Shown here one piece after another: positions 17,163 to 58,521 of a stretch of DNA of 64,000 nucleotides. Origin of the DNA: Liberibacter crescens BT-1. Lineage in GTDB: Bacteria; Pseudomonadota; Alphaproteobacteria; Rhizobiales; Rhizobiaceae. Under the pieces are notes generated by a model that was not told the DNA's origin, searched no databases, and was given only the letters and a program-made list of their open reading frames with translations. A program made the position numbers and the translations under genes. Each line of letters starts with the position of its first letter. Within the stretch, counting starts at the first letter, position 1. The stretch lies in the NCBI RefSeq assembly GCF_000325745.1, contig NC_019907.1, positions 950,001-1,014,000 of the forward strand, given 5' to 3'.

Positions 17163-17473
17163 CTAGTGATGCTCCATATCGGTCATGATTGAGGATCTGG
17201 CTGCCAGCCTGTCAGAATTTTTTTCATTTCCTGTTATTGGTTTCCACCCTGTGCATATCGCTTTCCTTGTCGCCAAAGCATCCTTCATTACGCACTCGTC
17301 AAGAGCATGGGAAGAACTAATACCACGATCAATATCATCTCTTTTTTATTGAGTACCCTTTCTGATTCCTTTCTGTCTGCTTCCTGTGCTGATGCCTTCC
17401 CCTTTCTATGCCCTGCAGCAAATGCCGAGAAAAGTGCCAGAATGACTCCCAAAATCGCATAGACTAAAGTCAT
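17163..17473 (-). pseudogene. Small membrane protein, possible Rz-like spanin, frameshifted
   Basis: As read, a 61-residue frame (17473 to 17288) begins MTLVYAILGVILALFSAFAAG (one membrane segment), followed by a charged stretch, and ends in an odd hydrophobic tail. Adding one base in the T6 run at 17342-17347 replaces that tail with a charged, helical-looking C-terminus (KKRDDIDRGISSSHALDEC onward), ending at 17163 after 104 codons in total. N-terminal anchor plus charged helix next to an endolysin is the usual form of an inner-membrane spanin. ATG overlaps the endolysin stop by 4 bp. Confidence 0.5.
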
Positions 17474-18162: not shown

Positions 18163-18244
18163 AATTTCTTTCCCTCTCCCAATAAGTGTGGTATAAAAAT
18201 TATGAACCTTACGCAAATAAGCCGATCCGTGAACGCGGGTCGGT

Positions 18245-18404
18245 TTACTGTTTCCAGTGTGGAAACTGTTTTATAACGGCGAAGATGGCCGCAAAGATTG
18301 CAGCAAGACCTCCAGTAAACTTTATAAAGATCAGGCTGCTTATGCAGACAATCAAGACGCTCCTGCTCAAGTTTCGCAGGGAAAAAAGGATTATCGTTCC
18401 AGTT
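18245..18404 (-). pseudogene. Overlapping phage relics: terminase-like scrap and membrane peptide tail
   Basis: Two frames look protein-like here. At 18312-18404 the minus strand reads NWNDNPFFPAKLEQERLDCL, which resembles the conserved region of PBSX-type terminase large subunits. In another frame, ending with a stop at 18245, it reads GGLAAIFAAIFAVIKQFPHW, a membrane segment that may be a holin tail. Neither has a start and full domain. I read this as a deletion junction where structural genes were lost. Confidence 0.35.
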
Positions 18405-18462
18405 CGCCCTTTAGGATTTCCTGACGTCCTTTTTTGAATGAAATGATCATTTAATCGTCTTT

Positions 18463-18489
18463 CACTGTTTTTTCACTGTTAAAACAGTG
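18463..18489. promoter_or_regulatory. CACTGTT repeat/palindrome, operator-like
   Basis: Two direct copies of CACTGTT (18463-18469, 18474-18480) followed by the inverted copy AACAGTG (18483-18489). The last two form a palindrome with a 2-bp centre. It lies between the early-operon terminator and the lysis genes, where a late promoter or operator would be expected. No binding protein can be named. Confidence 0.35.
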
Positions 18490-18502
18490 GAAAGCTCCCA
18501 AT

Positions 18503-18526
18503 AAAAAAGCCGCCTTAAAGGCAGCT
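18503..18526 (-). terminator. Rho-independent terminator, leftward
   Basis: On the minus strand AGCTGCCTT-T-AAGGCGGCT forms a stem with one G-U pair, followed by TTTTTTATT. It lies about 100 bp after the stop of the DUF6456-like pseudogene and probably ends the leftward early transcript before the lysis genes. Confidence 0.75.
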
Positions 18527-18630
18527 CAAAAACATATAAAAAAAGCACTACACACCCTCCGGCATACAATGCTGCACATAAGTGTCAAGTAGATATTCCG
18601 TTCGAACGAGTCAAGTACCAGAGTTGTTTT

Positions 18631-19121
18631 TTATGAGCTCTTGTACCCCCAATGTTGTGCAAGAACATCAAGCCCATCTTTTATATAATCCGCAATAGTC
18701 GTACGCTCTCTCACTGAAGAGCCCATATCCGATATCGCCTTGCCCTGCCCCGCGACCGCAATCATGAACTCATAAGCCCGAACGCCCAAAAGATTACGAC
18801 AGGCAACAAGCTGCTGCAACGCTGAGATACGATTCTCCGTTATCCCGTCATTCCTCACGCCACCATCAACACGAATCCCATCAAGGTTCACGCTCACATA
18901 GTCCATGCCGCCCGCAGCCTCCCATAAAGCCCGAAATCGTCCGCAGCACGCGCCTGACACGCATCAATATGGCCACGTGCCACCAATGTCGTAATCGCAC
19001 TCTCGCCAATGTTAACCTAGGCCATAATATGACGCGGATTGGTGACGCTCTCCCCATGCGATGATAAATACAGCGGGTTCTCAATCTCTATACAAACAAT
19101 ATCATTCTTCTTGTGCTTCAA
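18631..19121 (-). pseudogene. Phage regulatory/replication protein (DUF6456-like), disrupted
   Basis: The coherent protein starts at TTG 19121 behind TTTTTGGAG and runs through IEIENPLYLSSHGESVTNPRH. It hits an in-frame TAG (19018-19020), resumes VNIGESAITTLVARGHIDACQ, then shifts frame near 18938 to RFRALWEAAGGMDY and the helical C-terminus LGVRAYEFMIAVAGQGKAIS, ending at 18631. The RFRALWEA block plus the helical C-terminus resembles DUF6456-type proteins of rhizobial chromosomes and phages. One lesion is a stop, the other a single-base loss (GGACCGA to GGACGA). The 109-residue 3' part is open by itself from GTG 18960. Confidence 0.55.
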
Positions 19122-19259
19122 GGACAAACTCCAAAAACAAAACCTGCTATTCCTTTATCATAATAACACAAACCTTGAAACCCCTCAAAATCGTCGCGTT
19201 TAAACAAAAAAAATCATTGTAAACTCAATCCTTGACTCTTCAACCCTCTTCATCCACCT

Positions 19260-19403
19260 GATAAAATAAACACTGAAATATCAAACGTTAGAAACGATCT
19301 ACGCACCGAGATGAAATACAATTTCATCTTTACATTTAGTGCTATCATTGCCGCCGTTCTTGCGCTTTCTGGACTCATGGCAAAAGGCTTTCATTGGCTG
19401 TAA
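19260..19403 (+). pseudogene. Truncated copy of the coiled-coil/membrane-anchor protein
   Basis: Plus-strand open stretch with a charged helix (DKINTEISNVRNDLRTEM), then a membrane segment, ending GLMAKGFHWL and stop at 19403. From ATG 19311 it is only 30 residues. The ending matches the shifted-frame ending of the gene at 25421-25707 (GLMAKGLHWL) and the upstream helices look alike, so this is a 3' remnant of a paralogue. No ribosome site or full N-terminus is visible. Confidence 0.5.
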
Positions 19404-19429
19404 TATTCTTTAGTTTTTCTGAATAACCT

Positions 19430-20077
19430 TTAATAACGTTTTTCCTTTCTCCTCTTTTCCCTCTGCCCTTCAGGATTGAGACGTTCCTCCCACGTTGACT
19501 TCCTATCTTCCCATCTGAACACAATTAACGTCTCAAGGTACTTTCTGCCATTCTTGTCGAAACATTCAATCACTTCAAACCTTCCTTTTCTCTTCCATTT
19601 TTCCTTCAGGAGTTCCAACGGAAAAGCTTTTCTTTCGTATATTGCGTCTGCGGACTCCTCTTCCCGTGAATGTGATAAAACAAGTTCATCCCTCTGTTTC
19701 TGAAGGGACGATAATCTTTCCTGGAATGGTCTCGCCTCCTCCCTCACCAGAGCAGCAAAAACAGGAGGCATCGGCACCTGAGTAACAGAAATTCCATGTC
19801 TCCCTTCATACATCCCTCTGATATGCTTCTCTACCACCGCTTCAAGAGCTATTGAAGGTAATCCCGCTAACGATCTCGTGTAGGCTTTGAGGCCCTTTTC
19901 TGTTTGTAACGTATCCTGAATGATCATTCCAAACTCCTTCGTCATCATCCTCAGTTGTTCCGCTATTTCTTCCTCTGTAATCGGGGGGTTCTGGCTTCGA
20001 AGCAGGGATATTTGCTGATCCAGCGAAAAGATTTTCTGGCCCGTTTCTGTTGAGCTCGGCAGGTAATGTATCGCCAT
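19430..20077 (-). CDS. Phage hypothetical protein, mostly helical
   Basis: 215 residues, starting MAIHYLPSSTETGQK. Rich in charged helices (ITEEEIAEQLRMMTKEFGM; a coiled-coil-like stretch around FQERLSSLQKQRDEL) and ending in a very basic tail (REKRRKEKRY). The family is not recognised. It overlaps the 3' end of the preceding frame (19842-20870) by 236 bp in another frame. The composition here looks more natural in this frame, so the preceding gene probably ends earlier or is frameshifted. Position in the leftward early operon suggests a replication or DNA-metabolism role, but that is only context. Confidence 0.55.
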   Translation of the reverse strand: MAIHYLPSSTETGQKIFSLDQQISLLRSQNPPITEEEIAEQLRMMTKEFGMIIQDTLQTEKGLKAYTRSLAGLPSIALEAVVEKHIRGMYEGRHGISVTQVPMPPVFAALVREEARPFQERLSSLQKQRDELVLSHSREEESADAIYERKAFPLELLKEKWKRKGRFEVIECFDKNGRKYLETLIVFRWEDRKSTWEERLNPEGQREKRRKEKRY

Positions 20078-20870
20078 GGTCTATAACCTTTCCATCTATA
20101 ACTTTCGCTTTTTCAGCTTTTAATTTTTCGCAATGGTCATCTAAAAAATTCACCCACTTCTGATGCCTCATTCCCGCCGCTGTTCGTGGTGGATCAGTCC
20201 CTTGCCTCATCGATACGGAAGAACGTTGATAACCATCCTTGAAGCCCTTGAATCTCTCGTTTTTGATAAACCTGCACATGTGAACAGGACGATATTCAGG
20301 GTTATCTTTGCAGTACATCGAGAAATTGGGAATGGAATTTGAAACCTCTATCTTTTCCTCATCATCAAGCTTCTGCCAGGCAGAAAAAGCCTCTTTCTTC
20401 GACATGTTTGGGTCTGTTAGGTAATCTTGCCATGCCTCCTCAAAGGCAGCAGTATAAACAAGCTTCTTCTTCGGTTTTTTATGGCCTTTGCCAGCGTTTT
20501 GTTGAGGTTCTTCTCGTGAAATTGCCGCTGAAGAAACAACACTTTGCTCAGCGTTTGCTATGCATCTGCTTTCGTTTTGATCAACGCTTGTTGTGGTTTT
20601 GATATCAGTGTGATTGTCAAAATCATCAAAATCAGAAACCGACAAATCTGAACGAAGTGAAGATTTATTCTTTTTATTTTGGTTATTGGTTATTGGGTTA
20701 TGGTTATTGGTTAGGATTGCACTTGCATTGCTTATGCATTTCATGTGCATTGCCGATGGATTTCTCTCGGATTCCATCTCCATTGCTATCAGATTGCAAT
20801 GGATGCTCCATTGAATTCTGTGCAGAAGATCCTTCCCATCGTGCTTTTGAAGCTTTCGAACGCTTCTCAC
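19842..20870 (-). CDS. C-terminal part of the DUF1376-type phage replication protein
   Basis: A 342-residue frame whose first ~55 residues overlap the DUF1376 frame (20704-21147) and are probably not translated as such. From about SNASAILTNNHNPITNNQNK onward it reads like the natural continuation: a polar Asn/Ser/Asp linker, then AFEEAWQDYLTDPNMSKKEAF and VHMCRFIKNERFKGF, the kind of C-terminal domain found after DUF1376. A single-base indel near 20710-20730 would join the two frames. The final part (after about 20090) overlaps the 215-residue gene in another frame and may also be out of frame. Confidence 0.5.
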   Translation of the reverse strand: MRSVRKLQKHDGKDLLHRIQWSIHCNLIAMEMESERNPSAMHMKCISNASAILTNNHNPITNNQNKKNKSSLRSDLSVSDFDDFDNHTDIKTTTSVDQNESRCIANAEQSVVSSAAISREEPQQNAGKGHKKPKKKLVYTAAFEEAWQDYLTDPNMSKKEAFSAWQKLDDEEKIEVSNSIPNFSMYCKDNPEYRPVHMCRFIKNERFKGFKDGYQRSSVSMRQGTDPPRTAAGMRHQKWVNFLDDHCEKLKAEKAKVIDGKVIDHGDTLPAELNRNGPENLFAGSANIPASKPEPPDYRGRNSGTTEDDDEGVWNDHSGYVTNRKGPQSLHEIVSGITFNSS

Positions 20871-21147
20871 TATTGGAATGGTATTTCTCTATCTCTTCTT
20901 CGCATCTGTCATTGTACCAACCGTCAACCCTCTTCTCAAAAAAATGATAAAGAATAGTCTCAACAATCTGTTTGTACTTTCTTGTCTTGGCTCCTATAAA
21001 CCAGCATATCTCATTAAAGTCAGAAGGAAGATGGCTTTCCCGAACATAATAAAGATCTATCAATCGTCTGTATATAATGTCTTCTTCAAGAGAAAGATGT
21101 CTCGTGCTGGAATGATAATCGCCTACATTAAAAGAGTAATACTTCAT
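20704..21147 (-). CDS. DUF1376 domain protein, phage replication (N-terminal part)
   Basis: 147 residues. Begins MKYYSFNVGDYHSSTRHLSLEEDIIYRRLIDLYY, then RESHLPSDFNEICWFIG and FFEKRVDGWYNDRCEEEI: the DUF1376 signature found in early replication genes of many phages. The frame closes after QCKCNPNQ, but the expected linker and C-terminal domain continue in the next frame (19842-20870), so the gene is probably split by an indel. It follows the Cro-like gene by 46 bp, with GGAGGTGG upstream, and is the second gene of the leftward early operon. Confidence 0.75.
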   Translation of the reverse strand: MKYYSFNVGDYHSSTRHLSLEEDIIYRRLIDLYYVRESHLPSDFNEICWFIGAKTRKYKQIVETILYHFFEKRVDGWYNDRCEEEIEKYHSNSEKRSKASKARWEGSSAQNSMEHPLQSDSNGDGIREKSIGNAHEMHKQCKCNPNQ

Positions 21148-21193
21148 GATGATTTCACCACCTCCACAGACTTCTTATCCATCCGCCATATCC

Positions 21194-21463
21194 TTATTGT
21201 TCTGAAGTGTCTTCGTTATCTGGTGCAGGCCCAAAGATGTCGGGGTGTGATATGTTGTCTGGCCAAGGAGTATTTTCAGGCCATCTATCATAAAGCCACC
21301 TGAAAGCACTTTCCAGTCTACGTGTGCCAACGTCAGAACCCCTTCTTATGGAGTTAATCCGTTTACCATCATTGAAAATATACGTAGATAAAGTCGTCTC
21401 TGATATCCTATATGCAGAGCAATACGTTTCAATCATCTTTAAAAAATTATCTATTAGGTTCAT
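21194..21463 (-). CDS. Cro-like phage regulator
   Basis: 89 residues: FLKMIETYCSAYRISETTLS followed by YIFNDGKRINSIRRGSDVGT and LESAFRWLYDRWPENTPWP. The helix-turn-helix-like layout and FNDGKRxxxxRxG core resemble short Cro-type DNA-binding proteins of rhizobial prophages. It is transcribed away from the CI-like gene at 21550. The region between and over its start holds three operator-like repeats, one of which covers its start codon, fitting autorepression. It is the first gene of the leftward early operon. Assignment rests on context as much as sequence. Confidence 0.6.
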   Translation of the reverse strand: MNLIDNFLKMIETYCSAYRISETTLSTYIFNDGKRINSIRRGSDVGTRRLESAFRWLYDRWPENTPWPDNISHPDIFGPAPDNEDTSEQ

Positions 21464-21511
21464 AAAAATATTATGAGGTTTATGTACCGAAATGTCAACG
21501 GTTTATGAACC
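21457..21511. promoter_or_regulatory. CI/Cro operator array, three half-palindromic sites
   Basis: Sites GGTTCATAAA (21457-21466), GGTTTATGTACC (21477-21488) and GGTTTATGAACC (21500-21511) are spaced 20 and 23 bp. The outer two contain the perfect inverted pair GGTTCATAAA / TTTATGAACC. Spacing near two helical turns and location between divergent regulator genes resemble a lambda-type three-site operator. Confidence 0.6.
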
Positions 21512-21549
21512 AAGTGACTTTTATTTTTTATACGGTAATAATACCAAGA

Positions 21550-21990
21550 ATGGAGACAAGTTTAACACAAAAAATGTTGGAAGAACTCTTGGAGAGGGTA
21601 AAAAAAAGGCTTAATAAACTAAATATAACAGAGCACGCTTTAGAAATACAAGCAAAAGCAAAAGTAGGAACTATAAGAAACTGGCGAAGAGGTGCCTTAC
21701 CACGTATAGATACTTTATTTACAATAGCTCCAGCTCTTTGTACCACACCAGAATGGTTGGCTTTTGGAGTAGGAGAAGAAGAAACCACAAAAGAGGATTA
21801 TTTAATTAAAGAGATAACAATGTCTATAAAAGAGCGATGTATACAAGATTTGATCTCTGACATAGTAAACCTAGATGAAGAACAACTTAATTGGATAAAA
21901 GGGTCTATAGAATACATGAAAAAAACAAGGAGAATACATTCCCCTCCTTTTACCAGTAAGCAAGATAGTAAAAACGATAAAGTGCTTTGA
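21550..21990 (+). CDS. CI-like phage repressor, HTH family
   Basis: 146 residues from ATG 21550. The frame is open from ATG 21505, but that start overlaps operator site 3, and the added residues (TFIFYTVII) look non-coding. The helix-turn-helix covers about residues 10-60: LLERVKKRLNKLNITEHALE, then KVGTIRNWRRGALPRIDTL and TTPEWLAFG, the usual phrase of short CI-type repressors. There is no LexA-like peptidase domain, so induction would not be by RecA-mediated self-cleavage. It diverges from the Cro-like gene. Confidence 0.72.
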   Translation: METSLTQKMLEELLERVKKRLNKLNITEHALEIQAKAKVGTIRNWRRGALPRIDTLFTIAPALCTTPEWLAFGVGEEETTKEDYLIKEITMSIKERCIQDLISDIVNLDEEQLNWIKGSIEYMKKTRRIHSPPFTSKQDSKNDKVL

Positions 21991-22149
21991 TTTTATGGAT
22001 GTTTTATAAACAAAACAATAAAAGGCATGATTTATTCCATAACTTGATCTAATTCATTCAAATAATCTAAAAACATTACTTCCAGAAGAAAAATTATCCC
22101 CCCCTATTCTATTCATAAAAATTACTTTACTTTTCGGTAATTTTTCCGA

Positions 22150-22166
22150 TACTTAAACTTTAAGTA
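22150..22166. promoter_or_regulatory. Palindrome upstream of the second HTH gene
   Basis: TACTTAAA-C-TTTAAGTA is a perfect 17-base palindrome, 115 bp before the HTH gene at 22282. The 21991-22281 gap holds no credible gene; it is AT-rich. The palindrome could be an operator for that regulator, but there is no second copy to support it. Confidence 0.35.
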
Positions 22167-22281
22167 GTTATTATAAATAATGGCCATGCTTACCAAAAAA
22201 GAATTGGAGCTCTGTTAGCCAATAGAAAATATTGCGCAATATGCTAACGACTGCAATCTTATTTTGCTCTATTTTAAAGAA

Positions 22282-22614
22282 ATGGATAATATCATAAAAG
22301 AAAAACAACCAAATAGACCGCATCACATAAGGGATTGGGCAGAGCGTAACGGGTACTATTCTCAAGCAGATCTTGCTAATGCATTAAACGCAGATAAAAG
22401 TGTTGTTTCACGGTGGTATAAAGATTCTTCTCCAACAATAAAATGGCAAAAAAAATTGGCAGAATTTTTTAAATGTGACAAAGAAGCTCTTTTCAGGCAT
22501 CCTGACGATGATTGGTTCTCAAATTTTATAGAAGGAAGAACCAAGGAGGAGATAGAGCGCATAAAAACTATGCTGCAAGCTGCCTTCCCCTCCTCGTCTG
22601 ATCAAATAAAATAA
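22282..22614 (+). CDS. Second HTH-type (XRE) regulator
   Basis: 110 residues from ATG 22282; the frame opens six codons earlier at 22264. The HTH lies around residues 15-60: HIRDWAERNGYYSQADLANALNADKSVVSRWYKDSSPT with KWQKKLAEFF after it. The C-terminus (RTKEEIERIKTMLQAAF) is a short helix. It has the layout of small phage or plasmid repressors. Together with the CI-like gene 290 bp upstream this gives the prophage two candidate immunity regulators. It is convergent with the gene at 22635-22964. Confidence 0.7.
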   Translation: MDNIIKEKQPNRPHHIRDWAERNGYYSQADLANALNADKSVVSRWYKDSSPTIKWQKKLAEFFKCDKEALFRHPDDDWFSNFIEGRTKEEIERIKTMLQAAFPSSSDQIK

Positions 22615-22634
22615 TAATTTTTATTTACATTACC

Positions 22635-22964
22635 TTATTGTATATGCATAGAAAAATATCCAAAAGCTGCCCGTATCATACTGGCAATAAGAGGATCTAC
22701 GTCTACATATTCCATTTCTTTTATCGCCAATCTGAGAGCATCCAAAGCACTTTGAGCGGTTTTTACTGCAAAAGTCCAACTTTCAAGAACACTGATTTGT
22801 TGGCTGATAACATTATTGCTAAAGAATTCACTGTTGTCTGTTTCTATATCCGTGTAATTTAAAAAGTCGCATGCCTCTTCATAAGCTCGAATAGAGCAAT
22901 ATAACGGATCAACCTCCATATCATTATTAACGTTAACAGAAGAATTTATAGAACAATTATCCAT
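22635..22964 (-). CDS. Prophage hypothetical protein
   Basis: 109 residues from ATG 22964, chosen because AGGTG lies ten bases upstream; the longer frame to 23096 runs through a structured leader. Sequence is acidic at the N-terminus and helical later (SWTFAVKTAQSALDALRLAI, then SMIRAAFGYF). The family is not recognised. The leader resembles phage C4 antisense RNA, so this gene may be the controlled product in an immunity or antirepression circuit. That is inference. Confidence 0.5.
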   Translation of the reverse strand: MDNCSINSSVNVNNDMEVDPLYCSIRAYEEACDFLNYTDIETDNSEFFSNNVISQQISVLESWTFAVKTAQSALDALRLAIKEMEYVDVDPLIASMIRAAFGYFSMHIQ

Positions 22965-22969
22965 GAGTA

Positions 22970-23125
22970 TACACCTACGCTTGTGGTCGTTATATCTACC
23001 ACCGTGAGCTTTTGTGTGCACAACGATGATGGCGGGAGGCACAAAACCCGTGACCAGCAGTAGGCGCTTAAAACGAGCGGAATTATTCGAGCTCAAGGAG
23101 CCTTATTTCTTCGCCCTCCCACCAT
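22970..23125 (-). ncRNA. Structured leader resembling phage C4 antisense RNA (candidate)
   Basis: The minus strand carries CACGGGTTTTGTGCCTCCCG, then TTGTGCACACAA-like and GTGGT...ACCAC hairpins (GGTGGTAGATATAACGACCAC region). An upstream GGTGGGAGG (23115-23123) can pair over nine bases, one G-U, with CCTCCCGCC (23031-23039). The TGCCTCCCGCC core and its position before a small phage gene recall the C4 RNA of P1/P7/P22-type phages, from memory. A covariance-model search would decide. Confidence 0.4.
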
Positions 23126-23207
23126 AAGAGAGGTATGTTTAACGCATAAAAATGCGTCTCTAGAAGAAGCTTTCAGAAGAACTATAATTGTTTTTGTTAT
23201 TTATATC

Positions 23208-24212
23208 TTAATTTTTACTTGGCTTAAACTTCAAAATCGGCTTCTCTATATACCTGTATGACAAAAAAGAAACAAAAACAATTATTATAGATGAAAGTAA
23301 CCAGCACCAAAAAAAGGGGAAATAATGTCCATATATATAATACATAGCTTGCTGTATAGGAAAACCGTATATATATATCCCGTAAGATAAGTCTCCTATC
23401 TTCTTACCTATAGATGATAATATAAATGTTTTTTGATTACCAATCAAAATAAATATTAGTGGTAATGCCAAATCTGGCATAATTCCTATATAACCAAATT
23501 TCAGGTATAAAAGTATTAATAACAAAGCCATAAAAAACAAAAAATAAAACTTTCGGGAGAAGAAGATATCTTTAGTATGAAATAAAGAGAATCCATAAGC
23601 AAACTGAAAGAAAAGCCATTGTTCACGTGAAAAAATGTCAAGTGACATTGGAAACCATATATGAAGAATCAAAGAAATGATAAATATACAAATTATTGCC
23701 GATCTTTTTTTAAGAATCCCTAATACCCCTAATATCGCTACAAGAATATAGCATTTAAATTCTGGCGGTATAGTCCATAAACTTGCGTTAATGAATTTAG
23801 GGTATGCATTTCTATAAAAAACTCCTGGAAGAGTATTATGAATGTTTAGAACAAGATTTAAAAAATACTTTAAAAAATCAATGTCAGTGAAATATTTCTT
23901 TAAAGTATAGTCTGTTAATAAAGGCCCCATCAAAAATGCTGTTGCAAAAATCATAAATGTTAAAGCTGGCCATATCCTCAGTATCCTTTTTATAATAAAT
24001 CTTATACACGATTGATCATTTTCCCAACTCTGAGCAATAAGAAAACCGCTTACTGAGAAAAAAATTATTACTCCTAAACGGCCAAGTTGTTCGTCTATAA
24101 AAGGTAAGCTCTGAGAAAAGCCAAACACTTGGAACTGATGGCTGATAAGGACTATGAATGCAGCAACTAGCCGAACAAAATCGAAGTTATTGTTGAACGA
24201 TCTATTCTTCAT
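23208..24212 (-). CDS. O-acyltransferase (acyltransferase 3 family, OafA-like), prophage cargo
   Basis: 334 residues from ATG 24212, with about ten membrane segments. The N-terminal FDFVRLVAAFIVLISHQF contains the R and H of the acyltransferase-3 active region, followed by GVIIFFSVSGFLIAQSW and the later SLWTIPPEFKCYILVAILG. Such phage enzymes acetylate O-antigen or other surface glycans and change phage sensitivity or serotype. The start at 24212 overlaps the stop of a 9-residue leader frame (TAATG), which has the good ribosome site this start lacks. The frame is open to GTG 24248. Very AT-rich compared with the phage core genes, suggesting separate acquisition. Confidence 0.85.
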   Translation of the reverse strand: MKNRSFNNNFDFVRLVAAFIVLISHQFQVFGFSQSLPFIDEQLGRLGVIIFFSVSGFLIAQSWENDQSCIRFIIKRILRIWPALTFMIFATAFLMGPLLTDYTLKKYFTDIDFLKYFLNLVLNIHNTLPGVFYRNAYPKFINASLWTIPPEFKCYILVAILGVLGILKKRSAIICIFIISLILHIWFPMSLDIFSREQWLFFQFAYGFSLFHTKDIFFSRKFYFLFFMALLLILLYLKFGYIGIMPDLALPLIFILIGNQKTFILSSIGKKIGDLSYGIYIYGFPIQQAMYYIYGHYFPFFWCWLLSSIIIVFVSFLSYRYIEKPILKFKPSKN

Positions 24213-24241
24213 TATAGAAAGCCACGTTTTATGATTCTCAT
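24212..24241 (-). CDS. Leader peptide MRIIKRGFL coupled to the acyltransferase
   Basis: ATG 24241 follows GGGGAGGTGTGTC, the best Shine-Dalgarno sequence in this region. The frame encodes nine residues and stops with TAA whose last A is the first base of the acyltransferase ATG. The acyltransferase start has no good ribosome site of its own. This arrangement is typical of translational coupling. Whether the peptide itself matters is unknown. Confidence 0.5.
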   Translation of the reverse strand: MRIIKRGFL

Positions 24242-24302
24242 GACACACCTCCCCACTGAAGGAAATATGTTTGGCACTTTAATTGAGAAATCAATACTAT
24301 AG

Positions 24303-24536
24303 TTATCTTCTATAATAACCGTAATGATGGCTTGGCGGTCTTCGCCAGTACTCATGTACATATTGTTGATGCCCGTGCACATTGCGATAATACGGTCTTA
24401 CGTGAACAGTTTTTGCTGGTGAATGATAATATGGCGTCCTGTATGAATAATAATGTCTGCTAACCGTTTCTCAACTGTGGGTATCCCCGTTCTCGTCTTG
24501 GTTAATTTCTATAGAAGAACAATATACATTCAACAT
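24303..24536 (-). pseudogene. Tyr/His/Arg-rich small protein with in-frame TGA
   Basis: From ATG 24536 the minus strand encodes 21 residues, then TGA (24471-24473), then 55 more in the same frame: RHYYSYRTPYYHSP, VHVRPYYRNVHGHQQYVHEY and RRPPSHHYGYYRR. The strong Tyr/His/Arg bias is not expected by chance and resembles short surface-associated YxxHY-rich proteins. There is no signal peptide and a weak ribosome site. It lies in the 390-bp gap between the acyltransferase and the outer-membrane protein gene. Confidence 0.4.
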
Positions 24537-24640
24537 ATTTAAACTTTTAGTTAAAAAAATTTTAAAAGCTGCAAGAATATTATATACATTTTTAACTCGA
24601 ATCATATATGGGTAGGAATTCAATTAAGGGAGAGTGAAAA

Positions 24641-25318
24641 ATGAAAAGATTTTTAATGCTTTCATTGTTGGCAAGCACTGCAAATTTTGCTTATGCCGCT
24701 GACGCCGTGAATAATGTAGATAATATTCCTCATGCTGCGTCACAGCCCACGGGTTCGAATTCTGGTAATTTCTCTTGGGAAGGCGCATACGGCGGTGTTC
24801 TAGGTGGTGTTAGCGCAGCAAGATATAAAGACCCAGTCACAAGTACGTCTAATGAGCCAGAGAAATTAAATATCACCAGCCCGGCTATTGGTGGTTTCGC
24901 AGGTTTTAATTTCCAACAAGAAAATATTGTTTATGGCGTGGAAGGCGACCTTGGTTATGCTTTTAAAAAGAAAAAACTTAGTTTCACAATAGATGGTAGT
25001 CCTACAATAAACGTCAACGCCAAGGGAAGTACAGAACTTTATGGTTCTATAAGAGCCCGCTTAGGATATTCACTTGATAGGGCCCTCGTATATGCTACGG
25101 CTGGGTGGTCTTTTAGCAAGGCCAAGTTCACTCAGGACATTAATTCAGTGATCAATAAGAAAACATTCAACGGGCCGACAGTAGGCGTTGGTGTTGATTA
25201 TGCCATTACCGATAATATTTTTGCCCGCGCAGAATACCGTTTTGCCTCATTCAGGAAGAAAGAAAGTACTAAGGCTCAGCAACAAACACTCCTTGCTGGA
25301 ATCGGTTACAAATTCTAA
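24641..25318 (+). CDS. Outer-membrane beta-barrel protein (Omp25/Omp31-like), prophage cargo
   Basis: 225 residues. Signal peptide MKRFLMLSLLASTANFAYA with cleavage after AYA. After a short polar linker, eight-strand barrel-like repeats: WEGAYGGVLGGVSAARY, IGGFAGFNFQQ, VYGVEGDLGYAF, LYGSIRARLGYSLDRALVYATAGWSF, ARAEYRFASF, ending GIGYKF with the terminal aromatic needed for BAM recognition. It matches the small porin family common in Rhizobiales (Omp25/Omp31, hemin-binding proteins). RBS GGGAGAG precedes ATG. Located between prophage genes and next to an acyltransferase, it is probably lysogenic-conversion cargo. Confidence 0.85.
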   Translation: MKRFLMLSLLASTANFAYAADAVNNVDNIPHAASQPTGSNSGNFSWEGAYGGVLGGVSAARYKDPVTSTSNEPEKLNITSPAIGGFAGFNFQQENIVYGVEGDLGYAFKKKKLSFTIDGSPTINVNAKGSTELYGSIRARLGYSLDRALVYATAGWSFSKAKFTQDINSVINKKTFNGPTVGVGVDYAITDNIFARAEYRFASFRKKESTKAQQQTLLAGIGYKF

Positions 25319-25420
25319 AGTTTCGTTCTCCTTATTAACGAACCACAAAGCTGTCATCGTCAGATGACAGTTAGGGGTCTTCCTCTTTACTCTCTTCCCT
25401 AACTCCTCCACACTCTCTTT

Positions 25421-25707
25421 ATGAACGCACAGGCCGAAAAGAAAGAATCTCAACCGAAAAATACCCTTGAAACGAGAGTAACAAGGCTGGAAACAGGTTT
25501 CGAGTATCTCGCAACAAAGGCTGATATCGCCAGTGTTCGAACCGAGATAGCAAATGTCGAAAACCGTCTGAATGACAAGATACATACTGAGGTATCTGAA
25601 TTACGAAAATCAGCGGATAGAGATTTTCGTATTCTGTTTGGCGCACTTATCGCTGTTGCCCTCGGTCTGGATGGGGACTCATGGCCAAAGGCTTACATTG
25701 GCTGTAA
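25421..25707 (+). pseudogene. Coiled-coil protein with C-terminal membrane anchor, frameshifted
   Basis: From ATG 25421: TLETRVTRLETGFEYLATKA and VRTEIANVENRLNDKIHTEV form a coiled coil, followed by the membrane segment FRILFGALIAVALGL. In the read frame it then continues as DGDSWPKAYIGCN. One base lost or two gained around 25669-25677 would restore GLMAKGLHWL and stop at 25707, matching the remnant at 19403. This layout is common for small phage proteins of unknown role, often near lysis genes. Without correction the frame extends to 25732. Confidence 0.6.
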
Positions 25708-25936
25708 CGCGCCCTTCTCAACGCCTCTATAGTAAATTACACGGAAAAGATATTAAAAACTGTAAACTAAAAAGGCCTGCTAGTAACAGACCTTTTTAAA
25801 AAAAGTTTTCTCATAATCCTTCATATCCTGACACAAAAGAATCTCTACGTTGCAATAATATTTGACTCGACTATTGCGGGAAAAGATTCTATGAATTAAT
25901 CCGCTATGGGAGAATTATTACAGGGATATCTACTAG

Positions 25937-26209
25937 ATGATGGATTATAATATCGTTTGCATACATAAGCCTGATAGACATAACGCACATAAACATATAG
26001 AATATGTTGGTGTATCTGGAGGGCAACAATTTTCACAAAGTCAAGTCATTTCTTCAATTGAAGAAGGTAAATACCGTTTTTATGTTGATCGAGGAGGATC
26101 AAAAACCTGGGTTGAAGTTGTTATATCTAACTATGGACATAAAGCTATAAGGACTCATCCAGACTATAATCTCAGTAATAATCTTCTTAGTCTTCCAGAA
26201 TGTAAATAA
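25937..26209 (+). CDS. DUF3892 domain protein
   Basis: 90 residues (possibly starting at the second ATG, 25940). It has the whole DUF3892 pattern: IVCIHKPDRHNAHKHIEYVG, SSIEEGKYRFYVDRGGSKTWVEV, RTHPDYNLSNNLLSLPEC. The function of this small family is unknown; it is widespread in bacteria and often sits among accessory genes. No signal peptide or membrane segment. The ribosome site is weak. Confidence 0.8.
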   Translation: MMDYNIVCIHKPDRHNAHKHIEYVGVSGGQQFSQSQVISSIEEGKYRFYVDRGGSKTWVEVVISNYGHKAIRTHPDYNLSNNLLSLPECK

Positions 26210-26263
26210 ACCAAAATATAATGGCTGCTTTGTTCGTTTTAATGAAGCAGCCATTTTAGAAAC

Positions 26264-26488
26264 TTACCTCACTCTTTCAACATGCGTTATTTTATCTAAA
26301 ACCCAATTAGATACGGCATCATACACAGCAGCCTCAGATGCCTCTACAATCTCATTCTCTGTCAGTTTTCCTTTATCCAGATATTCAAAAATATCTTCGC
26401 TAAGAGAATCGTAAACCAGTTTTTCAAACTCACATCTGGTTTTCTCCTTGCCTCTGCTCTCTGCAATCGAGTGTGTTCCTTCTGTCAT
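26264..26488 (-). CDS. Prophage hypothetical protein
   Basis: 74 residues, acidic and helical (EKLVYDSLSEDIFEYLDKGK, then VEASEAAVYDAVSNWVLDKI). Family not recognised. A good ribosome site (AGGGTGA) lies about eight bases before ATG 26488. It is convergent with the DUF3892 gene, with 54 bp between the stops. Confidence 0.6.
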   Translation of the reverse strand: MTEGTHSIAESRGKEKTRCEFEKLVYDSLSEDIFEYLDKGKLTENEIVEASEAAVYDAVSNWVLDKITHVERVR

Positions 26489-26621
26489 AAAATTATCACC
26501 CTAAAGTTGATTTTTCCCTGTTCTTTTCCTGTTCTTGCAGGACAATCGTAATTACATATTTACATTCTAAAGTTGTGATTTTCTTGCGTTTATCTACTTC
26601 TCGCCTATCAATCATTCTCCT

Positions 26622-26705
26622 TTAAACTATTCCAAGGTCAACGCTTTCAGAAGTGAGTACAATTGACTTCTCTTCAGGTGGGTTGGCTGTTGTTTCATCG
26701 CTCAT
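26622..26705 (-). CDS. 27-residue microprotein with strong ribosome site
   Basis: ATG 26705 is preceded by AAGGAG with a six-base spacer (ATAACC), among the best Shine-Dalgarno sequences in the prophage. The product starts MSDETTANPPEEKS and ends SVDLGIV; it is acidic and has no membrane segment. It is 133 bp upstream of the 74-residue gene on the same strand. Unknown function; could also be a leader. Confidence 0.45.
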   Translation of the reverse strand: MSDETTANPPEEKSIVLTSESVDLGIV

Positions 26706-26833
26706 TGGTTATCTCCTTGTTCGAATTCATGTAGTTCTTTGAGTCTTCCCTCTCCTTCAGTTCATGCAGCGACACGAAATGCGCCGCTGAAACCAAACTC
26801 TACGAAATATTTTCGGGGGTGTAAAGGAAAATA

Positions 26834-26880
26834 GGTACATGTACCCATTTTTATGTTGACACGGTACATATACCTATAAT
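26834..26880 (+). promoter_or_regulatory. Prophage promoter with two operator-like palindromes
   Basis: GGTACATGTACC (26834-26845) is a perfect palindrome and GGTACATATACC (26863-26874) a near copy. TTGACA (26856-26861) and TATAAT (26875-26880) are consensus elements, but the gap between them is only 13 bp; TAGATT at 26880 would give 18. The palindromes match the GGTnnATnnACC pattern of the CI/Cro operators 5.3 kb away, so this rightward promoter is probably under the same repressor. An inverted repeat CACCTGAAC/GTTCAGGTG follows (26894-26902, 26936-26944). Confidence 0.55.
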
Positions 26881-27002
26881 AGATTTACTCCATCACCTGA
26901 ACGGGTTTTTGTTAATTTTTGCTCTGTTCAGGTGCCCCCCAAGGCACGAAGACCGGAAACATGATCTGCCATGAGAAAAGAAACAGGGAAAGGGACACGG
27001 AA

Positions 27003-27117
27003 ATGGCTAAGTTTACAATTCGTAACACAACTCCGCAGGTTCGATAGCGAATATCAGGATATTAGCACAGAAGATTCCTTTTATTCAGACGAACATAGTA
27101 CTTTTTTTTTCAAATGA
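27003..27117 (+). pseudogene. Short phage gene with single-base insertion
   Basis: ATG 27003 follows AAAGGGACACGGAA and starts MAKFTIRNTTPQ, then meets a stop. Dropping one G of the GG at about 27038-27039 gives FDSEYQDISTEDSFYSDEHS and a stop at 27117 that overlaps the next ATG (27114) as ATGA, the usual coupling of phage early genes. About 37 residues if corrected. Unknown function. Confidence 0.4.
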
Positions 27118-27342
27118 TTACAGCAAGCTTCTCGGACTTCCTCGTATCCTACGCCAAAATCCACGCCCCTAAAGCCTGTTTAGGCAGGGTGGAAGATGAC
27201 CTTGGTTATTATGCCCCAGAACAAAATAAGCGATGCTTTCCATGCTGCATGGAAGGAAGAGGAAACAGAAGAAAATGAGGATACACGATATGACCCACGA
27301 GAAGAGCATTTTGACCAAAGAGATTATCTTCTGCCCATATAG
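27114..27342 (+). pseudogene. Phage hypothetical protein with frameshift
   Basis: From ATG 27114: SFSDFLVSYAKIHAPKACLG and VEDDLGYYAPEQ. Removing one A in the A4 run near 27232 lets it continue ISDAFHAAWKEEETEENEDT and REEHFDQRDYLLPI to a stop at 27342, about 75 residues. As read the frame ends early in a composition unlike a protein. Family not recognised; probably an early phage gene. Confidence 0.4.
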
Positions 27343-27477
27343 GCCAGAGATCCTGGGAAGAAACCTTACCTGAACAAGCACAGAAACAGAAGATTAAAAG
27401 AAACCGCCAGGAGCGGTAACGGGGGAGGCTCTTTGTTCCTTAATCGGGCCTCCCCTCCAGAAAAAAGGATAACGCCG

Positions 27478-27690
27478 ATGCTTGAGTTCAGCACAAACGG
27501 TTTATGGATCAACAACGGCAAGACTTTCATCCACATTGAGCGTGTAAAGGGTAATCGCAATGAATTTTGTCTCTCTGTGATGGATGATGAAACAGGGAGC
27601 AAAAGCTGCCTGATGAAAAGGGAACAGCTTTTGGCATTATCAGCCTACGCAGAATACAACGCCAAGGCAGGAAAAGGAGAACAGGAATGA
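27478..27690 (+). CDS. Prophage hypothetical protein
   Basis: 70 residues from ATG 27478 (AGGA eight bases upstream). The sequence MLEFSTNGLWINNGKTFIHI followed by NEFCLSVMDDETGSKSCLM and a helical KREQLLALSAYAEYNAKAGK looks like a small mixed alpha/beta protein. The family is not recognised. Its stop overlaps the next start (ATGA, 27687-27690). An upstream GGGGAGGC/GCCTCCCC inverted repeat (27422-27455) has no T-run. Confidence 0.6.
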   Translation: MLEFSTNGLWINNGKTFIHIERVKGNRNEFCLSVMDDETGSKSCLMKREQLLALSAYAEYNAKAGKGEQE

Positions 27691-28241
27691 GCAATATCGT
27701 CGAACATAATACTGAAACAATGAAAATTATGTCAGCAGGAACTTCTGCAATCAGGACAACGGAAGAACACGAAATGACAAGAGAGCGGAAAGTTTCATCA
27801 ACAAGGAAATGCAATGAGGCATTGATCATGAACAGGAAGCACGGAAAAACTATCAGTTCATCATCAATCTGGATGTTCAGGAAACAGGCTTTGTTATTCA
27901 TCCCGATATTCCTGGACGAAATCATTGCCATGCTGGAAAAGGAAATCAAGGCCTTCCTGCAGGAAATAGACGATGTCATCACAAGACCTCAATACCAGAT
28001 ATCAAAAAGAAGCAGCATGAGCCGCGCCCTGATTGTTCTGCATAACACTATGGATCGGCAAAAGGCTATGCACTGGGTCAAAACAGCCCCCTGCCAAAAC
28101 AAGGATAGAATTCAGAAAACCCTTGCGCAGTCTGCCACAGAACAATCGCATGTGGGCAATGCTCACCGATATCGCCATCATGCAGACAAAACATCATGGG
28201 ACAAGGCTTGCTCCCGAGGACTGGAAGCTGATCTTCCTTGA
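27687..28241 (+). pseudogene. Mosaic frame: disrupted phage protein upstream of ninB
   Basis: The 184-residue open frame appears to be stitched from several genes. Between about 27760 and 28016 a coherent product reads ESFINKEMQ (stop), then HEQEARKNYQFIINLDVQET and FVIHPDIP in one frame. After one extra G near 27914 it continues DEIIAMLEKEIKAFLQEIDD in the open frame. Its last part (from 28017) is the N-terminus of NinB, and everything after about 28091 is out of frame. The start overlaps the preceding stop as ATGA. I would not trust the full-length translation. Confidence 0.4.
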
Positions 28242-28413
28242 TGCCCTGCGAAAGGAAATGCGCATTGTTCCCAATCTTGAAGGAAATGGCTTCGTCAATC
28301 TTGGGCGTTCTTCCTCAAACCTCACAAAAGAGGAAATGAGCAACATGATTGAGCTTATGCATGAATGGGGAGCACGCAATAAAATCATCTTCCACGATGG
28401 AGAAACACTATGA
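28017..28413 (+). pseudogene. ninB: NinB-like recombination protein, frameshifted
   Basis: NinB (lambda Orf family) loads or modulates RecA-type recombination on SSB-coated DNA. The start ATG 28017 gives RALIVLHNTMDRQKAMHWVK. After one extra C in the C5 run at 28087-28091 the protein continues AKTRIEFRKPLRSLPQNNRM, WAMLTDIAIMQTKHHG, LAPEDWKLIFLDALRKEMRI and TKEEMSNMIELMHEWGARN, the NinB core. Removing the base gives exactly 132 codons, near the family norm. The downstream part is open from 28033 in its own frame. The stop overlaps the next ATG (ATGA). Confidence 0.75.
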
Positions 28414-28586
28414 CCTCTCCTGCATTCATCAAACAGGCAGATCTGCAAAGAGTGGCGAATGTCGCCAAAAACAATCATGTCATGATCGAAATTATCTCGG
28501 GGGGATTGACCTTTCGTGTCTATCCTGAATTCACAATCCCTTCTCCTGAAACAGAAAGGGAAGCGGTAGATCTTTCCTTGTACTAA
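28410..28586 (+). CDS. Small prophage protein before the integrase
   Basis: 58 residues: MTSPAFIKQADLQRVANVAK, then MIEIISGGLTFRVYPEF and a polar tail. ATG overlaps the ninB stop and the gene ends 2 bp before the integrase start, so it is coupled to both. Small proteins of this type (basic helix plus short beta part) commonly precede integrases in rhizobial prophages. An excisionase-like role is possible but not shown. Confidence 0.6.
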   Translation: MTSPAFIKQADLQRVANVAKNNHVMIEIISGGLTFRVYPEFTIPSPETEREAVDLSLY

Positions 28587-28588
28587 CC

Positions 28589-29611
28589 ATGCCTAAACAT
28601 CGTTACCCTCATCTCTCACACGAAACAACACGACACGGTAAAAAAGTCTGGTACTTTAAAAAAAATGGTAAACGCATCAGGCTTCCTGATTCATACGGAT
28701 CGCAAAAGTTCCTTGAAGCCTACAAAAATGCTCTTGCAGGGAATATTCCTGTAAAAAGAAACACTGTAAAACAGGGAACATTGGCGTGGCTGATTCAGGA
28801 ATATGGGAAAAGCAGCCATTACAGATCTTTAAACATTTCCACAAAAAAGGTTCGCGAAAATATCTATAAAAAAATTATCCAGAATTCAGGAGATATTCCA
28901 TTCACCCAAATAACCAGAAAACATATTCAGGATACCGTAGATAAAAGAGCAGCAACACCTTTTTCCGCCATTGGTTTTCTAAAGGCAATATCACCAATTT
29001 TCAAATGGGCTCTGGAAAACGAATTCATGAGCAAGAATCCTGTTATCGGTATATCTCGCCCCTCTCAAAAAACAGATGGTTTTTATACATGGACAGTTGA
29101 AGAAGTGGAGAAATATCGCTCTTTCCATCCTGTGGGAACAAAAGCGAGACTCGCTCTTGAGCTTATGTTGTTTCTCGGGTTGAGAAGATCCGATGTCGTG
29201 CGCATTGGGCCACAGCATATGAAGGATGGTGTTCTCTCCATCAAAACACAAAAAACAGGAACATGGGTTTATATCCCTGTCTTTAAACCCTTGCAGGAAT
29301 GCATAGAAAAAACAGAAACGGGAAATGATACATTCCTGACAACACATAAGGGGACATCTTTTATGTCCTCTTCATCTTTTGGAAACTGGTTTTGTAAAAA
29401 ATGCAGGCAAGCGGGTTTAGCAGACGAATGTCGAGCTCACGGCTTGCGTAAAGCAGGGGCAACCATTGCTGCAAATGCAGGAGCCAGCACACAGGAACTC
29501 ATGGCTATGTTCGGATGGTCAAAAATGTCCATGGCAGAAGTCTACACAAAAGCAGCAGACAAAACGAGGTTAGCTTATCAGGCTGCAAAAAAGCTCTCAA
29601 AAGGAATTTAG
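28589..29611 (+). CDS. int: Tyrosine recombinase, prophage integrase
   Basis: 340 residues. The N-terminal part includes KKVWYFKKNGKRIRLPDSYG, and the core-binding domain spans about residues 65-160. The catalytic domain shows LFLGLRRSDVVRIG (Arg I), HGLRKAGATIAANAG (His-x-x-Arg), the tryptophan of MFGWSKMSMAEVYTKAA and its tyrosine nucleophile. All catalytic residues appear present. It lies 93 bp from attR, as expected for a phage integrase acting on the tRNA-Arg site. The reading frame is intact, unlike many neighbours. Confidence 0.93.
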   Translation: MPKHRYPHLSHETTRHGKKVWYFKKNGKRIRLPDSYGSQKFLEAYKNALAGNIPVKRNTVKQGTLAWLIQEYGKSSHYRSLNISTKKVRENIYKKIIQNSGDIPFTQITRKHIQDTVDKRAATPFSAIGFLKAISPIFKWALENEFMSKNPVIGISRPSQKTDGFYTWTVEEVEKYRSFHPVGTKARLALELMLFLGLRRSDVVRIGPQHMKDGVLSIKTQKTGTWVYIPVFKPLQECIEKTETGNDTFLTTHKGTSFMSSSSFGNWFCKKCRQAGLADECRAHGLRKAGATIAANAGASTQELMAMFGWSKMSMAEVYTKAADKTRLAYQAAKKLSKGI

Positions 29612-55584: not shown

Positions 55585-58521
55585 ATGCAAAAAGGTGATC
55601 ATCTCTTTCTTATTGATGCGTCGGGTTTTATATTCCGAGCTTTTTATGCTATGCCACCACTTCATCGTAAAGCAGATGGATTACCCGTTAATGCAGTTTC
55701 CGGTTTTTGTAATATGATCTGGAAGCTCTTAAAAGACGCTCGAAATACAGAAATTTCTATTACACCATCACATTTTGCTATCATTTTTGATCATCCTGCC
55801 AAAACTTTTAGGAATGTTTTATATGAAGGATATAAAACCAATCGTTCTGCGGCCCCTGAAGAACTCATAATTCAATTCCCTCTTATTCGGTTAGCAACAC
55901 AAGCTTTTAGTCTTCCTTCTATTGAAATTGAAGGATTCGAAGCGGATGATATTATTGCCAGTTATACACGTGCTGCTGAAAAAGAAGGTGCAGAGATAAC
56001 CATAGTTTCGTCCGATAAAGATTTGATGCAGTTAGTCAGCCCTTCTGTTTCTTTATATGATACTCTTAAAAATAAACGTATCGGGATTGATGATGTTTTA
56101 AAAAAATGGGGGGTACCTCCAGAAAAAATGATTTGCTTACAGGCATTAACCGGGGATTCTATTGATAATATTCCTGGTATCCCGGGTATAGGCCCTAAGA
56201 CAGCTGCCTTGTTACTTGAAGAATATGGTAATCTTGATAATATTTTATTACAAGCTCATACCATGAAACCGTCTAAAAGACGGGACGCACTTATAGAACA
56301 CGCTAATATGGCTCGTCTTTCTCGAGAGCTTGTAACGCTGCGTACTGACCTTCCCCTTCCAATACCACTTAATGAAATACTATTACATCCTCAAGAAGGT
56401 TCTCAACTTATTGCTTTTCTTAAAGCAATGGAATTAAATGCACTTATAAAGCATGTTGCTAAAGTATGTGACTGTGATGCTTCACTCATTGAAGCAGCTG
56501 ATGTAGATCCAGGAGAAACCTGGCGTAAAAAAAATGATGAGCATAATTCTCCTAACACTGAAGTTTCATCTATTTCTGACAGAAAAATATTCACACCTCA
56601 GTCACTGGTAATAGAACGCTCTAAGAGCTTTAAACAATTAAAAACAGAAGATACATTTTCCTGTCAGCAGATTATTGATATTAATAACTTCAAAACTTGG
56701 ATTCATAGAATACGGGATAATGGAATTGTTGGTTTCAAAGTCATCACTGATAAAATGGATATTTTAAATTCTAAACTCGTGGGATTTTCATTCGCTATGA
56801 AAGAAAAAACCATTCCATTATCACAAATACAGATTTCGGCAATTTATATACCACTGAATACACACAATACACCTGAGATCATAGAAGATGAATCAGCTTC
56901 AAAATTGTATATTCCTAATGAATTAGCACTGTCCTATCTTAAAGAACTGCTAGAAGATCCTTCTATTCTTAAAATTGGTCACAATATAAAATATGATATT
57001 ATTGTGATGAAACGCTACGGGATTGATATTTGCAGCTTTGATGACACAATGCTTATGTCTTATGTATTAGACTCTGGACGTTCTGATCATAATTTAAAAA
57101 CACTTTCTAAAAAATGGCTAGACCATATTCCTATAAACTACAAAGACCTTACTGGAACAGGAAAACTGCTGACTACTTTTGATAAACTACCCATATCACA
57201 AGTTAAAGAATACGCTGCCGAATGCTGTGATATAAATCTAAAATTGTGGATGCTCCTTAAGCAAAGGCTTGTCGCTGAAGGTTTGTTATCTGTATACGAA
57301 CGGCTAGAACGGCCAATGGTAACAGTCCTGGGAGAAATGGAAACAAATGGTATATATGTAAACCAAGAAATTCTTTTGCAACTTTCTCATGAATTACTAC
57401 AAGAAAGTATGATTTTAGAAAAAAAAATACATGCTCTTGCCGGTGAAAATTTTAATATTGCATCACCGAAACAACTGAGTAACATTTTATTTACAAAAAT
57501 TGGATTGTCCAGTGGATTTAAAACGAAAACAGGACAAAAATCAACATCAGCCCAAGCTCTTGAAAAGATGAAGTTTGATGAAAATATCCTGTTACCAATG
57601 ATTCTTGAATGGCGTCAACTGTCCAAACTCAGATCAACGTATACAGACGCTCTTCCTCACTATATTAACAAAAACACGCATCGAATTCATACTCATTATT
57701 CTTTAGCAGCTACAACAACTGGACGTCTTTCTTCTTCAGAACCAAATCTCCAAAATATTCCAGTACGAAACGCTTTGGGCCGTAAAATTCGTAAAGCTTT
57801 TATCGCTCCCCATGGAAAAAAGTTGATTTCTGCTGACTATAGCCAAATTGAATTACGTGTTTTAGCGCATATTGCACATGTTTCAGAACTTTGTCAGGCC
57901 TTCGCTGATGGGATAGACATTCATGCAATGATAGCATCTGAAGTTTTTAATATACCTTTAAAAGAAATGTCAATTGATGTACGTCGCCGTGCCAAAGCCA
58001 TTAATTTTGGTATCATTTATGGAATTTCATCCTTCATGCTAGCCAATCAATTAGCTATTTCACGCTCTGAAGCTTCAGAATATATTGAACTCTACTTTAA
58101 GCGTTTTCCAGGAATACGTGACTATATTGAAACAACAAAAGCCTTTGTTCATCAGCACGGCTATGTAGAAACCATCTTTGGACGCCGAATATATTACCCG
58201 GAAATAAACGCACGCAAAGCATCAATTCGTCAATTTAATGAACGTGCAGCTATTAACGCACCTATACAAGGCTCAGCAGCAGACATCATCCGAAGAGCCA
58301 TGATTCGTATGAAAAAAGATTTCATCCATCATAATATTTCAGCACAAATGTTGCTCCAGGTACATGATGAACTCGTTTTTGAAGTAAAAGAAGAGGAAGT
58401 TATTAAAAGTATACCCATTATATCTAAAGCCATGGAAAACGCTCCCTTTCCTAAACTAAACTTAATAGTACCTCTTAAAGTAGACATAAGAGCCGGTTAT
58501 AATTGGGAAGAAGCGCATTGA
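55585..58521 (+). CDS. polA: DNA polymerase I, with degenerate proofreading domain
   Basis: 978 residues. The 5' nuclease domain (about 1-290) has LFLIDASGFIFRAFYAMPPL and EGFEADDIIASY. The polymerase domain has motif A SADYSQIELRVLAH, motif B RRRAKAINFGIIYGIS and motif C LQVHDELVFEV, all intact. The 3'-5' exonuclease domain (about 360-570) is altered: Exo I reads GFKVITD where DxE is expected (K385, I387), Exo III reads YAAECCD where YAAED is expected (C547). Exo II GHNIKYD keeps D471. Three of four metal-binding acids are gone, so proofreading is probably absent while repair synthesis and primer removal should remain. Confidence 0.96.
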   Translation: MQKGDHLFLIDASGFIFRAFYAMPPLHRKADGLPVNAVSGFCNMIWKLLKDARNTEISITPSHFAIIFDHPAKTFRNVLYEGYKTNRSAAPEELIIQFPLIRLATQAFSLPSIEIEGFEADDIIASYTRAAEKEGAEITIVSSDKDLMQLVSPSVSLYDTLKNKRIGIDDVLKKWGVPPEKMICLQALTGDSIDNIPGIPGIGPKTAALLLEEYGNLDNILLQAHTMKPSKRRDALIEHANMARLSRELVTLRTDLPLPIPLNEILLHPQEGSQLIAFLKAMELNALIKHVAKVCDCDASLIEAADVDPGETWRKKNDEHNSPNTEVSSISDRKIFTPQSLVIERSKSFKQLKTEDTFSCQQIIDINNFKTWIHRIRDNGIVGFKVITDKMDILNSKLVGFSFAMKEKTIPLSQIQISAIYIPLNTHNTPEIIEDESASKLYIPNELALSYLKELLEDPSILKIGHNIKYDIIVMKRYGIDICSFDDTMLMSYVLDSGRSDHNLKTLSKKWLDHIPINYKDLTGTGKLLTTFDKLPISQVKEYAAECCDINLKLWMLLKQRLVAEGLLSVYERLERPMVTVLGEMETNGIYVNQEILLQLSHELLQESMILEKKIHALAGENFNIASPKQLSNILFTKIGLSSGFKTKTGQKSTSAQALEKMKFDENILLPMILEWRQLSKLRSTYTDALPHYINKNTHRIHTHYSLAATTTGRLSSSEPNLQNIPVRNALGRKIRKAFIAPHGKKLISADYSQIELRVLAHIAHVSELCQAFADGIDIHAMIASEVFNIPLKEMSIDVRRRAKAINFGIIYGISSFMLANQLAISRSEASEYIELYFKRFPGIRDYIETTKAFVHQHGYVETIFGRRIYYPEINARKASIRQFNERAAINAPIQGSAADIIRRAMIRMKKDFIHHNISAQMLLQVHDELVFEVKEEEVIKSIPIISKAMENAPFPKLNLIVPLKVDIRAGYNWEEAH

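Follow-up and report, generated by a model that had tools for sequence, protein, structure and literature searches.

DNA polymerase I of Liberibacter crescens appears to have lost its 3'-5' proofreading site in an otherwise maintained protein

In wild-type Escherichia coli, the 3'-5' exonuclease site of DNA polymerase I (Pol I) holds four catalytic carboxylates. Klenow enzymes without D355 and E357, or without D424 alone, show exonuclease activity reduced by orders of magnitude. Loss of the exonuclease is also found in nature: in the Thermus (Taq) and Geobacillus (Bst) groups it is old and clade-wide, and the polymerase carries a vestigial exonuclease domain. Another case is Helicobacter pylori, whose only DNA polymerases are Pol I and Pol III; its Pol I lacks D355, D424 and D501 and has no measurable proofreading (PMC3121766). 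According to a 2026 survey, DEDDy residues are substituted in about half of the Pol I orthologs found in bacteria; these substitutions are unrelated to genome size, and are commonest in Firmicutes, Tenericutes and Actinobacteria (PMC12926913). For Ca. L. asiaticus, published statements on the exonuclease domains of Pol I conflict within a single paper: the text of PMC3158068 says that the enzyme is without 35EXOc and 53EXOc, while Table 1 of the same paper lists 53EXOc as present.

The genome of L. crescens BT-1, a member of the Rhizobiaceae, is reduced, AT-rich (36% GC) and contained in one contig of 1,504,659 bp. Its polA gene lies in the window, that is, the 64,000-nucleotide stretch of DNA that was analysed, and encodes a PolA1 protein: it has an N-terminal 5' nuclease with its acidic site, a family A polymerase domain with motifs A, B and C and, between them, a DnaQ-like 3'-5' exonuclease fold. 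The layout of the gene, with the relevant residues of the exonuclease site, is as follows:

55585..58521, + strand: polA, DNA polymerase I; 978 aa, ATG start, intact frame; PF00476 (E = 1.6e-152), PF02739, PF01367 and PF01612 above cut-off
55603..56391, + strand: 5' nuclease (FEN-like) domain, aa 7-269; PF02739 and PF01367 above the Pfam cut-off
56686..57267, + strand: DEDDy 3'-5' exonuclease domain, aa 368-561, fold kept and active site broken; PF01612, 78.5 bits (cut-off 23.6)
56737..56739, + strand: K385 (AAA), in the place of E. coli Exo I D355; Klenow alignment and codon
56743..56745, + strand: I387 (ATC), in the place of E. coli Exo I E357; Klenow alignment and codon
56995..56997, + strand: D471 (GAT), equivalent to Exo II D424, the sole catalytic carboxylate left; Klenow alignment and codon
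57211..57213, + strand: Y543 (TAC), equivalent to Exo III Y497, retained; Klenow alignment and codon
57223..57225, + strand: C547 (TGC), in the place of E. coli Exo III D501; Klenow alignment and codon
57367..58512, + strand: family A polymerase domain, aa 595-976; PF00476, 508 bits

A first-pass annotation of this DNA had described the 5' nuclease and polymerase motifs as intact, and the description holds. In the 5' nuclease, the acidic residues D121, D122, D144, D146, D191 and D194 are invariant across 39 aligned PolA proteins, and the same is true of motif A D751, O-helix R800, K804 and Y812, and motif C D928 and E929 in the polymerase. In these intact motifs, as well as in its three-domain architecture, L. 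crescens PolA resembles E. coli Pol I, with 44% identity over the Klenow part and a TM of 0.90 (structure 1d9d).

The two enzymes differ in the proofreading site. When L. crescens PolA was searched against the PDB with phmmer, residues 362-978 aligned to E. coli Klenow, and the motif regions contained no gaps. FDTET of Klenow pairs with FKVIT, QNLKYD with HNIKYD, and YAAEDAD with YAAECCD. Where a proofreading-competent enzyme has the DEDDy set (D, E, D, D plus Tyr), L. crescens PolA has K385, I387, D471, C547 and Y543. Alignment and codons thus bear out the initial claim that the Exo I DxE reads K-x-I (385/387), that the Exo III aspartate is Cys547, and that three of the four proofreading residues are lost, D471 being the only one of the four carboxylates that remains. 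Intact D-x-E or Y-x3-D motifs elsewhere in residues 360-570 would overturn this claim; they were looked for in the same alignment and none was found, and the lack of gaps, with no substitute motif nearby, rules them out. D389 and D549 are not replacement ligands, because E. coli has both too (D359 and D503). Sequencing error or chance can also be discarded as the source of K385, I387 and C547, since a minimum of five nucleotide substitutions is required to reach these codons, and the reading frame remains open.

The top PDB chain for L. crescens PolA is 1d8y (523.0 bits, compared with 522.1 bits for wild-type Klenow), a Klenow entry that reads FATAT for FDTET, Ala having already replaced both Exo I carboxylates. 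Loss in 1d8y was engineered with alanine, while in L. crescens it occurred through K, I and C. Judged by its sequence, the proofreading site is gone from an otherwise maintained L. crescens PolA, with the pattern of a naturally exo-deficient Pol I: catalytic carboxylates substituted, domain retained. Loss of Pol I proofreading, as first proposed, is the best reading, and the state has precedents in the Pol I enzymes of Taq, Bst and H. pylori (see the survey PMC12926913). With H. pylori the likeness includes the natural loss of three catalytic carboxylates, the retention of the fold and an apparent lack of Y-family polymerases; however, L. crescens keeps the D424 that H. pylori lacks, and loses E357.

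The AlphaFold model of the protein keeps the exonuclease fold (mean pLDDT 89.8, mostly 90+ in the exo core) and matches the whole Klenow fragment, with a TM of 0.90-0.92 by target length. When we examined columns conserved in exo-intact relatives, 12 of 33 were found to be changed in the exo domain of L. crescens PolA, whereas the polymerase has 5 changed columns out of 99 and the 5' nuclease 3 out of 54 (12/33 versus a joint 8/153 for these two, Fisher p = 7e-6). Omission of the three catalytic sites left 9 of 30 exo columns changed (Fisher p = 3e-4). We therefore consider it highly probable that the 3'-5' proofreading site has decayed in an ordinary Pol I ortholog, and that the exonuclease fold persists as a structural element of the Klenow region. 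The terminal branch of L. crescens PolA is very long, but its exo/pol ratio (1.97) is ordinary for intact lineages and therefore gives no sign of a long, free decay of the exo domain. We infer either a relatively late loss of the site on the long L. crescens branch or a structural constraint that holds the fold in place.

In functional terms, with Exo I short of two and Exo III short of one of the four metal ligands, neither catalytic metal would be held, and 3'-5' excision by L. crescens Pol I is predicted to be negligible; K385 may fill the vacant metal site against D471. Pol I would then mature Okazaki fragments and fill gaps without editing, would leave some mismatches in short patches, and might be more prone to extend ends that are mismatched or damaged. 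The replicative proofreader DnaQ is encoded in the genome (G000:C1:1498585-1499067) and its motifs DTE, HNATFD and HGALLD are intact; hence, replicative proofreading should be unaffected, and the expected effects should be confined to short Pol I tracts. As the fidelity of replication depends on Pol III-DnaQ, Pol I proofreading would be under weak selection, and the site may have been lost by drift.

The alignment of PolA across relatives that the first-pass annotation had proposed as a check was run on 249 sequences, mostly alphaproteobacterial. Sampling was done at the levels of family (one genome per genus), order (one per family) and class (about one per family), with an additional contig search, and Liberibacter is represented by one genome, L. 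crescens. A site was considered broken if a non-acidic residue was present in at least one of the four carboxylate positions. By this definition the site is broken, and the enzyme is called exo-dead below, in 33 of the 249 proteins, including L. crescens and one divergent beta-labelled sequence; among Rhizobiaceae, 9 of the 51 PolA sequences sampled are broken. A FastTree phylogeny of 246 rows was built from 5' nuclease and polymerase columns only, leaving out the exo columns. With regain disallowed, the full tree holds 26 independent losses of the exo site (25 if at least two lost carboxylates are required), and 21 or 13 when branches with support under 80 or 95 are collapsed in favour of the fewest losses; because sampling is uneven, these counts show recurrence and not an exact frequency. 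On the fixed topology, the median exo/pol terminal-branch ratio was 3.23 in exo-dead proteins (n = 30) and 1.66 in intact ones (n = 188), with a Mann-Whitney p = 1.8e-12 that overstates certainty because tree tips are not fully independent. The 5' nuclease terminal branches did not differ between dead and intact proteins (p = 0.25).

Unlike the losses in the Taq and Bst groups, that of L. crescens stands among many losses scattered over a class that is mainly exo-intact. The other exo-dead PolA proteins of the Rhizobiaceae (G007, G018, G028, G036, G057, G058, G072 and G122) are broken in the same site, but mostly with different substitution sets and in separate places in the tree, and most of them have faster exo domains. 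L. crescens PolA thus adds one case to broken Pol I sites already known as common, and as a single case it adds little. The class-wide comparison is more useful: some 26 separate losses in a class that mainly keeps the site, with clear relaxation in the exo domain only, support the idea that cells with DnaQ can do without Pol I proofreading.

Three exo-dead proteins have a basic residue in place of the Exo I metal-ligand aspartate: R in L109 (G028) and L126 (G058), and K in L. crescens. All three are also without D501, replaced by G, G and C, respectively. A basic residue at Exo I may stabilise the empty metal site, and the R cases of G028 and G058 may share one origin. Another observation concerns L056 (CP063810.1), recorded as a 'Bordetella sp.' MAG of 866 kb and 30% GC, whose PolA is very divergent (34% identity) and has a broken exo site; CP063810.1 looks like a reduced symbiont genome.

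Loss of the site might have been adaptive instead, if exo-minus Pol I were the translesion polymerase of the cell and proofreading had been removed because it blocks lesion bypass. A precedent exists in H. pylori, a two-polymerase cell in which Pol I without proofreading carries out mutagenic translesion synthesis; both traits are measured in that organism (PMC3121766) and predicted in L. crescens. A polymerase inventory restricted to the Y-family (PF00817) and DnaE (PF07733) detected zero PF00817 matches in the L. crescens genome and one DnaE, compared with two in six larger relatives. Neither a Y-family polymerase nor a second DnaE is thus found, an H. pylori-like condition. The same kind of search in 78 genomes, of which the intact ones were hand-picked, partly to match small sizes, argues however against a link: Y-family polymerases are present in 18 of 28 exo-dead and 34 of 50 intact genomes (Fisher p = 0.80) and, among size-matched small genomes, in 3 of 13 and 7 of 22, respectively (p = 0.71). 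Furthermore, G121 and G005 are relatives without Y-family polymerases yet their exo site is intact, and all the other exo-dead Rhizobiaceae but G122 possess Y-family polymerases, unlike L. crescens. Coupling of exo loss to the presence or absence of Y-family polymerases was thus rejected, with no association in the 78 genomes. This is a first test of the coupling between exo-minus Pol I and the Y-family, a question left open by PMC12926913, and its outcome in this sample is negative. Adaptive loss therefore seems unlikely to us. We are equally doubtful that L. crescens lives on Pol III and exo-minus Pol I only, an arrangement in which Pol I would be the sole translesion or mismatch-extending polymerase and an H. 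pylori-like state would have been reached independently in a free-living relative of the citrus-greening bacteria. As L. crescens is culturable, its small polymerase set is directly testable.

Another explanation is that loss of the exo site is the first step of a general erosion of Pol I in reduced genomes, followed by loss of the polymerase until the 5' nuclease is left alone. Genus g7, made of reduced-genome Rhizobiaceae (1.0-1.5 Mb), shows Pol I at successive stages of such erosion. Pol I is full-length in G121, with an intact exo site (D/E/D/D), and in G122, which is exo-dead (G/E/D/N). In G006 (L098, G006:C1:540500-547500) an open 326-aa 5' nuclease precedes polymerase fragments that are interrupted by many stops, and G123 (L090, G123:C3 near 88809-89687) has a 306-aa 5' nuclease alone, with no family A polymerase domain. 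The 5' nuclease, kept in all four g7 genomes, outlasts the other parts, in agreement with the presence of its function in 99.8% of bacterial genomes (PMC12926913). However, genome size exceeds 2.1 Mb in around half of the exo-dead cases, and polymerase decay was seen in none of these large genomes, so that erosion is no general sequel of exo loss. L. crescens PolA itself retains 94 of the 99 conserved polymerase columns, and we find it rather improbable that its broken site marks the onset of erosion.

A separate observation was made in G071 (L324-L327), a Rhizobiaceae genome of 1,868,279 bp in a single contig, rated 99% complete, in which searches for family A polymerase, the Pol I 5' nuclease and RNase_T (DnaQ) gave no match. 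Since dnaQ adjoins polA in related genomes (e.g., G005 and g7), one missing stretch could explain both absences; the stretches sampled from G071 are without N.

A residual or altered exonuclease, in which D471 and Y543 together with new ligands such as C547 would bind one metal and support slow or selective cleavage, is conceivable because D471, N467, K469 and Y543 are kept, as are Exo II and most of Exo III, and the overall exo-domain rate is ordinary; but with lysine at the metal-binding D355 position and isoleucine at the E357 position we hold it to be very improbable.

The causes and effects that the first-pass annotation had attached to the decay of the proofreading site find no support. 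AT-richness had been linked to the loss; the GC content of polA has a median of 0.61 in exo-dead and 0.64 in intact genes, a difference that is not significant (p = 0.07), and many of the dead ones are GC-rich. AT-richness was thus rejected as a cause. Exo loss had also been invoked to help explain indels in the window; DnaQ is intact, however, and Pol I editing covers a small share of synthesis. In a spot check (no census) of 20 window ORFs scanned with Pfam, neither genes split over neighbouring frames nor neighbouring ORF pairs matching parts of one family were detected. Overall, the observation is true and its basic reading sound, and the causal extension is weak.

Elsewhere in the window, phage-type genes are found at 17470-29611: a lysozyme (17470-18216, - strand), DUF1376, NinB (28033-28413, + strand) and an integrase (28589-29611, + strand). 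The NinB match begins at profile position 31, so the NinB start may be truncated or misplaced. The presence of these genes suggests a prophage or a prophage remnant.
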